Source: Nitrospirota bacterium (GTDB taxonomy: Bacteria > Nitrospirota > Leptospirillia > Leptospirillales > Leptospirillaceae). From it: DNA of 64,000 bases. Shown here one piece after another: positions 34,851 to 40,243 of the stretch (its first letter is position 1; the number at the start of each line of letters is the position of its first letter). The stretch spans positions 1 through 64,000 of the forward strand of contig JAJZHW010000001.1 of NCBI GenBank assembly GCA_021810805.1. Direction: 5' to 3'. Both the position numbers and the translations under genes were made by a program. Below the pieces are notes generated by a model that saw only the letters and a program-made list of their open reading frames with translations, did not search any database and was not told the DNA's origin.

Positions 34851-36056
34851 ATGGAAAAAAAGAAAAAAACGGAGGAGCTCTCAGATGGTTTTGAGACGAT
34901 GGCGATTCACGGGGGGGATCTCGAGGATCCCTTTCGGGCCCTGACCTCTCCGTTGTATATGACCTCGACCTATACCTTTCCGAGTGTGGAAGAGATGTCC
35001 TCGGTCCTTTCCGGGGAGCGGTCCGGTTATGTCTACTCCCGCGCCGGAAATCCCACAGTCGGGGCAATGGAGAAGCTCGTGGCCAGACTCGAAGGAGGGG
35101 AGGCGGGAGTCGCCTTTGCCTCCGGGATGGGGGCCATTGCGGCCGTTCTCCTGCACTTTGCCAAAAGTCGACGTCCCTTGATTGTCTCCCGCCATATCTA
35201 TACGGGAACCCGCCACTTTATTTCGGGGATGCTCGAACCCCTGGGGCTTCCGGTCAAGGTCGCCGACCTTCGTGCCACCGAAGGGTTGGGAGACTTCAGG
35301 GAGCTCCTTCGGGCAGGGGCCGGAGGGGTCTTTTGTGAGACCCCGTCCAACCCCAGCCTCGACATTCTCGACCTGAAGGCCGTGGCCGATCTCTGTTCGG
35401 AGTACGGAGTTCCCTTGGCCGTGGACAACACCTTTCCCTCGCCGGCACTTCAGAAGCCCCTGCATCTTGGCGCGACACTCGTTGTCCATAGTGCCACCAA
35501 ATATCTGGGGGGCCACGGAGACCTTCTGGGAGGTGTGGCGGTGGGGAACGCGGAGGTGGTGCGAAAGATTGCCACAGTGGAGGGCCCTCTCCTGGGCGCC
35601 ACGCTCTCCCCCATGAATGCCTGGCTCATTCTTCGCGGGATCAAGACTTTGGCTCTCCGCATGGAGGCCCATACCGCGAGGGCCACCGCCCTGGCTCTAT
35701 TTTTCAAGGAGCAGTCGGCGGTGGTCGATGTCCGCTACCCTGGGCTTCCCTCCCACCCCGGCCATGAGGTCGCCTCCCGGCAGATGGCCGGAGCCGGGGG
35801 GATGCTTTCGGTGGTCTTCGACGGAGCGGAAAGGGCACGGCGCTTCATGAATGCCCTTCGAGTGATCCGGATCGGCGTGAGCCTGGGAGATCCGGCCTCG
35901 CTGGTGGAACACCCTGCCAGCATGAGCCACCGGGGGTATTCTTCCCGGGAGCGGGAGTTCATGGGTGTCCCCGAGGGGCTCGTCCGTCTTTCTGTGGGAC
36001 TTGAGAGCCCCGACGATCTCCTCGGTGATGTTGAGCAGGCCCTTCGGAGTCTTTAA
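34851..36056 (+). CDS. Cys/Met metabolism PLP-dependent enzyme
   Basis: A 401-residue enzyme of the cystathionine gamma-synthase/gamma-lyase/O-acetylhomoserine sulfhydrylase family. The PLP lysine is in SATKYLGGHGDLLGG. Phosphate-binding and ring-stacking segments GYVYSRAGNPTV and SGMGAIAAVL, and the Asp in VDNTFPSP, are intact. Family members act on homoserine esters or methionine and cysteine; the sequence does not discriminate. GAGAGGGAGAAG precedes ATG 34851, and the protein starts with a Lys-rich tail. Its end overlaps the convergent DUF2231-like gene by 4 bp. Confidence 0.92.
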   Translation: MEKKKKTEELSDGFETMAIHGGDLEDPFRALTSPLYMTSTYTFPSVEEMSSVLSGERSGYVYSRAGNPTVGAMEKLVARLEGGEAGVAFASGMGAIAAVLLHFAKSRRPLIVSRHIYTGTRHFISGMLEPLGLPVKVADLRATEGLGDFRELLRAGAGGVFCETPSNPSLDILDLKAVADLCSEYGVPLAVDNTFPSPALQKPLHLGATLVVHSATKYLGGHGDLLGGVAVGNAEVVRKIATVEGPLLGATLSPMNAWLILRGIKTLALRMEAHTARATALALFFKEQSAVVDVRYPGLPSHPGHEVASRQMAGAGGMLSVVFDGAERARRFMNALRVIRIGVSLGDPASLVEHPASMSHRGYSSREREFMGVPEGLVRLSVGLESPDDLLGDVEQALRSL

Positions 36057-36490
36057 AACCGGACCCCGGTGAGCCCCACGCCCTGAAGGAAGACGAGCCG
36101 CTCGCCCAGAAGGGCCGTTCCCAGGAGAAGAAGAAAAAGCCCCAGATCCAGCCCCGCAAAAAGATGTCGGAGCCGGAGCTTGTCGGGCCGAAGGCCTGCA
36201 AGAACCCGCCCGGTGATCCCTGCCAGAAGAAGCAGCCCCATCCCGCCATGAATCGATCCCAGAGAGATCTCATGGCCTGCGTTTTGAAGGATCCGATCGT
36301 TGGCCAGGGCGATCCATCCCGTGCCCACCCCCACAAGAACGAGCCCCACGATCCCCTCTCCGAAAAATCTCTCCCCCGGAAGAGTCGACTCAATTTTTCC
36401 CGTGAGCTTCCCGAAATCCCAGAGAAGGTAAATCAGTCCGAAGCCCACGGTGAAATGGATCAGGGCGGGGTGGAGATGGGACCAGACCAT
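36053..36490 (-). CDS. DUF2231-like multi-pass membrane protein
   Basis: A 145-residue protein with four predicted helices. The N-terminus HLHPALIHFTVGFGLIYLL and internal His residues (GHEIS, GSIHGGMG) match the pattern of DUF2231/YpfA-type membrane proteins, which may bind heme or another redox group; the function is unknown. ATG 36490 is chosen because GGAGG lies 5 bp upstream, inside an alternative longer reading from 36502. It starts just beside the upstream element of the nitrogen operon, and divergent transcription may be affected by it. Confidence 0.8.
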   Translation of the reverse strand: MVWSHLHPALIHFTVGFGLIYLLWDFGKLTGKIESTLPGERFFGEGIVGLVLVGVGTGWIALANDRILQNAGHEISLGSIHGGMGLLLLAGITGRVLAGLRPDKLRLRHLFAGLDLGLFLLLLGTALLGERLVFLQGVGLTGVRF

Positions 36491-36506
36491 GGGGGCCTCC
36501 ATGAAA

Positions 36507-36546
36507 TGTCAGTGCATGGACAAAAATGTTTGTCTTGACGTGGACA
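36507..36546 (+). promoter_or_regulatory. Tandem TGT-N10-ACA activator sites (candidate NifA-type UAS)
   Basis: Two sites fit TGT-N10-ACA: 36507-36522 and 36531-36546, each also reading TGTC-N8-GACA, with centres 24 bp apart. This is the geometry of NifA upstream activator sequences (TGT-N4-T-N5-ACA), though the central T is not matched. They lie about 84 and 108 bp before the -24 element at 36622. Each is followed by AAAAATGT, giving GGACAAAAATGT at 36518-36529 and 36542-36553, as in 7394-7405. Confidence 0.7.
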
Positions 36547-36619
36547 AAAATGTTGCGATCTGATGGCTTTGTTTCTGTCTTATTTTATTTAAATTGTTAT
36601 ATTGTAACGATATTAGATA

Positions 36620-36636
36620 TTGGCACGCTTCTTGTA
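36620..36636 (+). promoter_or_regulatory. Sigma-54-type (-24/-12) promoter of the porin-amt-glnK operon
   Basis: TTGGCACGCTTCTTGTA has GG at 36622-36623 and GT at 36634-36635, with exactly 10 bp between them. It matches TTGGCACG-N4-TTGCW except T for C in the -12 GC. The predicted start is near 36647, leaving a leader of about 240 bp before ATG 36889. Two TGT-N10-ACA sites sit upstream at enhancer distance. Confidence 0.8.
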
Positions 36637-36653
36637 TATCATGGGGCGTCCTC

Positions 36654-36705: not shown

Positions 36706-36721
36706 GGAACAGTACTGTTCC
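36706..36721. promoter_or_regulatory. Perfect 16-bp palindrome in the porin leader
   Basis: GGAACAGTACTGTTCC is identical to its reverse complement over 16 bp. It lies between the predicted sigma-54 start (about 36647) and ATG 36889, where a repressor could act as a roadblock. It resembles no operator I can name with certainty. No gene is recognised in 36491-36888. Confidence 0.5.
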
Positions 36722-36888
36722 TTCAAAGGATCTTCTCGCCGACGAGATTTTTCCAATATTGCGACGGACCGTACACTCTGCCGCGATCATCTTCTCCTGT
36801 TTCTTAATGACATTATCGTGACGATTGTTGTGACGGGATCGGCGGGATCGTTTTTCCCCTCCCCACACTTACTCTCCAAGGAGATTCC

Positions 36889-38328: not shown

Positions 38329-39798
38329 ATGAACATAGGAAAATTGCCAGGAAAGATGCTTCTTTCGGCTGTTCCGCTCCTGCTTCTTGCCGGGACGGCC
38401 AGCGCGGCGGCCGGGCCCACTCCGGCGGCGATCGCGGCCGATACCATCTGGACCGTTGTCGCAGCCGTTCTCGTCATGTTCATGCAGGCCGGGTTCGCCT
38501 TTCTCGAGGCCGGGCTCACCCGGGCCAAGAGTGCCGGCCATATCGCGGTGAAGAACATCGTGATCTTCTCCATCGCCAGTCTGGTCTTCTGGGCGGTGGG
38601 ATTTGCCGTCTGCTTCGGAACCGGCAACGCCATCTTCGGAACCTCGGGATGGGGGCTGGCCGTTCCTGACAAGGATATCAACACCGTCTTTGCCTCGCTG
38701 TCCTTCTCGGACATTCCGTTGGCTGCCAAGTATCTCTTCGAGGTGGTCTTCTGCGCGGTCAGCCTCGCCATCGTCTGGGGTGGCATGGCCGAGCGGACAA
38801 AGTTTATCGTCTACCTCGTTTTCGGTGTCGTCTTCTCGGCGGCGATCTACCCCGTCGTCGGGCACTGGATCTGGGGGGGCGGATGGCTGTCGACCCTCGG
38901 CATGCAGGACTTTGCCGGATCCACCGTCGTTCATCTTCAGGGAGCCTCGGCAGCCCTGGCCGGTGCCATCCTTCTTGGGCCCCGTATCGGAAAATACACC
39001 AAGGACGGCAAGTCCAATGCCATCGTGGGACACAACATTCCCTTCGTGGTGCTGGGAACCTTGATCCTCTGGCTCGGGTGGTTCGGATTCAACCCCGGAT
39101 CCACCATGATGGCGACGACTCCGTCGGTCGGTTATTTCGCCTACGTGGCCATGACCACCAACCTTGCGGCCGCCGCGGGAGCCCTGGCCTCCATGTTCAT
39201 GGCCTGGAAGCTTCTGGGAACGCCTGACATGTCCATGATTGCCAACGGCGCCATTGCCGCTCTTGTCGCCATCACGGCCACCTGTGCCTTCGTCGACCCC
39301 TGGGCCTCTATCGTGGTCGGTGCCATTGCTGGTATTATCGCGGTGGTGGGCGTTCTCCTGGTTGACCGTCTGAGAATCGACGATCCTGTCGGGGCGGTGG
39401 CAGTTCACGGCTTTGCCGGAGTCTGGGGAACCCTGGCCAACGGTCTCTTTGCCACACCCGATCGTGCCAAGCTCCTGGGCGTGGGTGGCCCGGGCCTCCT
39501 CTACGGTGGAGGGTTTCACCAGCTCGTCGTCCAGATCGAAGGCGTGTCAGCCTCTTTTGCCTATGTCTTCGTGATGAGCTTCCTGGTTCTTTATGTGCTC
39601 AAGATCACCGTCGGGATCCGCGTGACGGAAAAAGAAGAGCTTCAAGGGCTCGATATCAGCGAACACAAGATGTGGGGCTATCCGGAGATCTTCAACCCCT
39701 CTTTCGGCGGTTCGGGATCCATGGGGATGCCGTCGTCGGGAGCATCCGCTCCTCGCATCGAATCGGTTCAGGCCACAGGACAGACTCTTCGTCCATAG
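38329..39798 (+). CDS. amt: Ammonium transporter Amt
   Basis: A 489-residue Amt/Rh-family channel. A cleavable-looking signal segment (AVPLLLLAGTASAAAG) is followed by eleven membrane helices. The two pore histidines are in STVVHLQGASAAL and GAVAVHGFAGVWGT; the ammonium-recruiting and Phe-gate regions (FAFLEAGLTRAKSAGH) are intact. The C-terminal tail after the last helix contains ISEHKMWGYPE, which contacts PII in related channels. GAGGAG precedes ATG 38329. It sits between the porin and glnK in a sigma-54-controlled operon. Confidence 0.97.
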   Translation: MNIGKLPGKMLLSAVPLLLLAGTASAAAGPTPAAIAADTIWTVVAAVLVMFMQAGFAFLEAGLTRAKSAGHIAVKNIVIFSIASLVFWAVGFAVCFGTGNAIFGTSGWGLAVPDKDINTVFASLSFSDIPLAAKYLFEVVFCAVSLAIVWGGMAERTKFIVYLVFGVVFSAAIYPVVGHWIWGGGWLSTLGMQDFAGSTVVHLQGASAALAGAILLGPRIGKYTKDGKSNAIVGHNIPFVVLGTLILWLGWFGFNPGSTMMATTPSVGYFAYVAMTTNLAAAAGALASMFMAWKLLGTPDMSMIANGAIAALVAITATCAFVDPWASIVVGAIAGIIAVVGVLLVDRLRIDDPVGAVAVHGFAGVWGTLANGLFATPDRAKLLGVGGPGLLYGGGFHQLVVQIEGVSASFAYVFVMSFLVLYVLKITVGIRVTEKEELQGLDISEHKMWGYPEIFNPSFGGSGSMGMPSSGASAPRIESVQATGQTLRP

Positions 39799-40179
<381 letters not shown>

Positions 40180-40208
40180 GTTCAAAATGTGAGGTTTTTG
40201 TCAGGCCG

Positions 40209-40243
40209 GGGCCGGGGTCCGAAAGGATTCCGGCCCTTTTTTT
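40209..40243 (+). terminator. Rho-independent terminator after glnK
   Basis: A 12-bp stem with two G-T wobbles (40209-40220 with 40225-40236) and a GAAA tetraloop is followed by seven T (40237-40243). It ends the porin-amt-glnK transcript. Confidence 0.92.

Follow-up and report, generated by a model that had tools for sequence, protein, structure and literature searches.

Evidence for a NifA-type sigma-54 switch in front of porin, ammonium transporter and P-II genes in a Leptospirillum relative

NifA is usually seen as the activator of nitrogen fixation, and NtrC as the regulator that runs ammonium uptake. Which activator, then, acts on the sigma-54-like promoter that precedes a porin gene, an ammonium transporter gene (amt) and a P-II gene (glnK) in a member of the Leptospirillaceae? 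We addressed this question in the window, that is, the whole 64,000-nucleotide stretch of DNA analysed, and in the genomes of its relatives. The features of the locus are collected in Table 1.

Table 1. Features of the porin-amt-glnK locus (positions in the window)
Feature	Position	Strand	Basis
DUF2231-like membrane protein, divergent gene	36053-36502	-	just below Pfam cut-off
Distal NifA-type box TGTCAGTGCATGGACAAAAATGT (TGT-N10-ACA-N4-TGT)	36507-36529	+	pattern search; kept in relatives
Proximal NifA-type box TGTCTTGACGTGGACAAAAATGT	36531-36553	+	24 bp after distal; pattern search; kept in relatives
Sigma-54 (-24/-12) promoter TGGCACGCTTCTTGTA	36621-36636	+	pattern match; kept before orthologous genes in relatives
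Leader hairpins GGAAC-N6-GTTCC and TCTC-N6-GAGA	36706-36721, 36734-36747	+	family-conserved; ANTAR-target-like in part
Outer-membrane beta-barrel porin, BBP2/OmpL-like, 454 aa	36889-38253	+	PF07642
Ammonium transporter Amt	38329-39798	+	PF00909, TIGR00836
P-II protein, GlnK-type	39841-40179	+	PF00543
Intrinsic terminator-like hairpin with T-run, end of unit	40208-40237	+	strong, right after glnK

Firstly, we examined the promoter. A sequence-only reading had proposed a -24/-12 element with GG and GT 10 bp apart, and these were found at 36622-36623 and 36634-36635; the GG-N10-GC signature of sigma-54 promoters is present here as GG-N10-GT, in a TGGCACG-N4-TTG context. A T in place of the C of the -12 element is a tolerated variant. 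No other match to TGGCACNNNNNTTGYW occurs in the window (shuffled sequences give 0.04 on average), and the promoter would place the transcript start of porin-amt-glnK at about 36646-36648. A sigma-70 promoter-like site overlapping it at 36614-36642 was set aside, since its frequency is at chance level.

Secondly, we analysed the upstream sites. The two TGT-N10-ACA sites described in the same reading are indeed present at 36507-36522 and 36531-36546, spaced by 24 bp and centred 108 and 84 bp upstream of the promoter GG, and both proved longer than first noted, extending over 23 bp as TGT-N10-ACA-N4-TGT. TGT-N10-ACA alone is not rare in the window (3 copies vs 4.1 expected), whereas the 23-bp form is (2 vs 0.06 expected; two copies were never reached in 100 shuffles), and the whole 1.87-Mb assembly holds three copies of it. 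The third (G000:C24:33577) lies ∼100 bp before a sigma-54-like promoter, TGGCCCAGTAATTGCT, followed by an operon with genes for an RND transporter and a small protein that looks secreted (L135:1501-3022), and this layout recurs before the same genes in relatives within the genus. Some distant relatives showed ACA-N4-TGT only, which at first suggested that the palindrome ACAAAAATGT is the real site and that TGT-N10-ACA stands there by accident; this reading was rejected, as the position tests described below make both parts of one box. On reading 36480-36640, no NtrC-type GCAC...GTGC dyad was seen.

Thirdly, we delimited the transcription unit. Pfam confirmed the order porin, Amt, P-II; the gaps between the genes are short and a strong terminator-like hairpin follows glnK, for which the ATG at 39841 is preferred over the listed TTG at 39799. 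This agrees with the earlier proposal that the porin shares a switch with amt and glnK, and the porin is assigned to a predicted porin-amt-glnK unit ending at the 40208 terminator. The two leader hairpins are found in 7/7 distinct family leaders and nowhere else among the loci examined, and a search of the leader against Rfam gave no match. Reading them as an ANTAR target requires A1 and G4 in both hexaloops; the first loop has both in most species (A at position 4 in the window), but the second has G4 without A1, and this reading was therefore dropped. The hairpins are a possible second regulatory layer.

Relatives show boxes, promoter, leader and porin in the same order. Promoter and boxes are kept where the locus is kept, within the genus (L043, L044, L046) and in other genera (L182, L183), with two TGT-N10-ACA sites in L043 and L044 and at least one in the other three. 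At L043, which belongs to a fragmented MAG, the porin gene carries promoter and boxes while amt is not next to it, and the porin itself therefore seems, tentatively, to be a target of the switch. The amt boxes of genus g3 (L181) are degenerate or weak, so that g3 may differ from the rest of the family; in G003 the order is kdp-porin-amt and a promoter of the 36621-36636 type is missing.

We then searched for the same architecture at other promoters. Within the family (21 genomes), TGT-N10-ACA 60-90 bp upstream of a sigma-54 promoter gave 30 matches vs 0 for the reversed pattern, which is a weak null, and the chance number estimated from promoter density and site density is below one; the genome counts are not phylogenetically independent. 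The genes behind these matches include nifH, a MOT1-like molybdate transporter gene, CP-ATP-grasp, NuoL-like and RND-linked genes and others. Thirteen nifH promoters of the family have sufficient sequence upstream, and in 9 of them TGT-N10-ACA precedes the -24 element by about 80-93 bp; the nif promoters of close relatives thus carry the same site, as a NifA regulon would require. Across the phylum (246 genomes), the half-box ACA-WWWW-TGT was found 50-80 bp before a sigma-54 promoter in 55 genomes, and the reversed pattern in none. Outside the family, nifH lies behind 21 of 58 half-box promoters and nifB behind 15, with amt, P-II and nrfH genes among the others. Extended in this way to the phylum, the genome scan that the sequence-only reading had put forward returned mostly nifH, nifB and amt promoters. 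Two blind tests restricted to positions outside the selection pattern joined the parts of the box: sites picked on ACA-WWWW-TGT in the phylum have TGT at -13 in 36/87 cases (background 1.4) and, reciprocally, sites picked on TGT-N10-ACA have a further TGT at +20 in 14/29 (background 0.4), a large effect, for which formal p-values are too small as the sites include related genomes.

Two sets of genes with such promoters are recorded here in their own right. At L114, L122, L123, L126 and L128, a MOT1-like molybdate transporter gene stands behind a NifA-type box and a sigma-54 promoter. A half-box sigma-54 promoter also precedes a gene encoding a molybdopterin oxidoreductase domain fused to a P-II domain (PF00174 + PF00543; L142:272-1420), and a similar gene is found at L140.

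To which activator do the boxes point? The genome encodes six activators whose sigma-54 interaction domain is complete. One of them (G000:C16:12208-13821) is identified as NifA: it has a GAF domain, an AAA+ domain and a Fis-type HTH, passes the NCBIfam NifA model TIGR01817 (543.3 bits against a cut-off of 528.85), and shares with the NifA of PDB 9qq6 a TPRQ segment in the HTH. Cysteine pairs are described for redox-sensing alpha/beta NifA (PMC10590331); since only two cysteines (145 and 262) are present here, this NifA is without pairs of that type. None of the five activators scored (the sixth is on C17) reached the NtrC cut-off of 558.6, the best candidates having 441 and 354 bits, in a genome that is 88.7% complete. 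Enhancer control had been proposed to be of NifA or NtrC type: the NifA half of this proposal gained support from the box shared with nif genes and the presence of an encoded NifA, while NtrC control was rejected, because no GCAC/GTGC dyad was seen and none of the scored activators passed the cut-off.

The distribution of nifA bears on the same point. A NifA ortholog (threshold E<=1e-112) is found in 47/55 genomes with the half-box vs 79/191 lacking it (Fisher p 5e-9). The link is supported independently by gene order: G030 and G038 have amt-glnK-nifA, in G049 nifA adjoins a glnK-amt operon, and in G039 it lies within a few kb of amt genes; in G125 and G193, nifA stands beside nifH with half-box sites. 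Eight genomes have the half-box without a NifA ortholog, namely G001 (66% complete), G212 (half-box before nif genes), G085 and G091 of family f6, and G073, G126, G142 and G219 of family f10 (half-box before amt). Because the last six lack the ortholog, a similar box may be recognised by a different activator in families f10 and f6. The amt promoters at L153-L156, in family f10 genomes without a NifA ortholog, carry the full TGT-N10-ACA-N4-TGT box.

No nifH was detected in the present assembly (88.7% complete), and it is absent also from G012 (95% complete) and G017 (99% complete), both of which have NifA. Hence, the family probably does include genomes that have NifA but no nifH, and the NifA switch probably works even where nitrogen-fixation genes are absent.

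Conservation of the locus, boxes shared with nif genes, the presence of NifA and the nifA-amt linkage together support a NifA-type sigma-54 enhancer, and a NifA-type switch at 36507-36636 can be regarded as well supported on comparative grounds. This relative of Leptospirillum, an acid-loving iron oxidiser, thus appears to use NifA, and not the usual NtrC, for a porin, an ammonium importer and a sensor. The following mechanism, in which the genome's NifA drives porin-amt-glnK from 36507-36636, is one that we hold to be quite probable. Low fixed nitrogen, presumably sensed as ammonium, would be the trigger; the single NifA would bind both tandem boxes and, by DNA looping, open the sigma-54 holoenzyme at TGGCACG-N4-TTGTA; one transcript ending near 40237 would encode porin, Amt and GlnK; and the porin would let ammonium, and probably K+ too, through the outer membrane.

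Other activators were weighed against NifA. NtrX, of the NtrYX pair, could bind the boxes and control ammonium uptake in its place: the boxes bear a loose resemblance to the CAA...TTG half-sites of alphaproteobacterial NtrX, and the genome has NtrY/NtrX-like genes (L058). For L. ferriphilum, moreover, NtrYX has been proposed to control the uptake of ammonia (PMC2607301). However, the same box is a conserved element of nifH and nifB promoters, which are expected NifA targets, the L058 protein scores 475 vs an NtrX cut-off of 600, and the gene seen beside amt is nifA; on these comparisons NtrX is the worse fit, and we judge its involvement unlikely. For Leptospirillum, NifA control is thus a concrete alternative to the NtrYX proposal in the literature, and for the family the genomic evidence favours NifA. 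Equally improbable is that a PAS- or receiver-type activator (L057, L060, L061) uses the boxes, with NifA confined to nif. The genome does hold six activators, and in family f10 the box precedes amt although no NifA ortholog was detected, but amt and nif promoters have the box in common, its occurrence follows that of NifA, and the gene to which amt is linked is nifA. A chance resemblance, with promoter or boxes non-functional, would accommodate the chance frequency of TGT-N10-ACA alone, but it can be dismissed almost entirely, as two unexpected 23-bp boxes are conserved between species at a typical spacing.

The porin raises the matter of cation entry. In most genomes of the family, as well as in two further families (G028, G029), the gene immediately before amt encodes a BBP2 porin; in other families, unrelated secreted-looking proteins take its place before amt, and one secreted-looking protein, weakly TorF-like, precedes a P-II gene. 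Porin twins also stand behind kdp potassium-pump genes in the family (L045, L048, L051, L055), and in a tree a kdp-linked porin clusters with the amt-linked one of its own genome (L051 with L052, L044 with L045). These kdp-linked twins point to a putative channel for small monovalent cations, K+/NH4+. The BBP2 porin gene KSMBR1_3177 of Kuenenia rises strongly under ammonium limitation (PMC7438415), and together with the twins this gives circumstantial support to a role of the porin in ammonium entry through the outer membrane. Such links, before amt and behind kdp, make outer-membrane NH4+/K+ entry directly testable.

Across the phylum, nif genes and ammonium scavenging are tied together by one box, and a NifA that runs ammonium uptake would explain NifA in genomes without nifH. 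We offer, as a tentative generalization to which we give somewhat less than even chances, that NifA of Nitrospirota is a general nitrogen-scavenging activator acting through all or part of an extended box, ACA-N4-TGT-N10-ACA-N4-TGT, and was kept after nitrogenase loss for ammonium uptake, including an outer-membrane small-cation channel shared with Kdp. A literature search covering few subscription journals found no report of NifA control of amt in Nitrospirota.

Three known systems can be compared with this locus. Kuenenia KSMBR1_3177, from another phylum, is likewise an outer-membrane porin of the BBP2 type with a link to ammonium limitation, and is not reported as part of an amt operon (PMC7438415). 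The NtrC-controlled glnK-amtB of Proteobacteria similarly places amt and P-II under a nitrogen-responsive sigma-54 enhancer, whereas here an NtrC dyad was not seen, none of the scored activators passes the NtrC cut-off, and the order is porin-amt-glnK with a leading porin. Finally, while the NifA-dependent nif promoters of Klebsiella and Azotobacter differ from this one in that the target here is porin-amt-glnK, nifH was not detected and the box has a fixed extra N4-TGT half-site, they have in common with it the TGT-N10-ACA dyad, its range of distances, the sigma-54 promoter and an encoded NifA.
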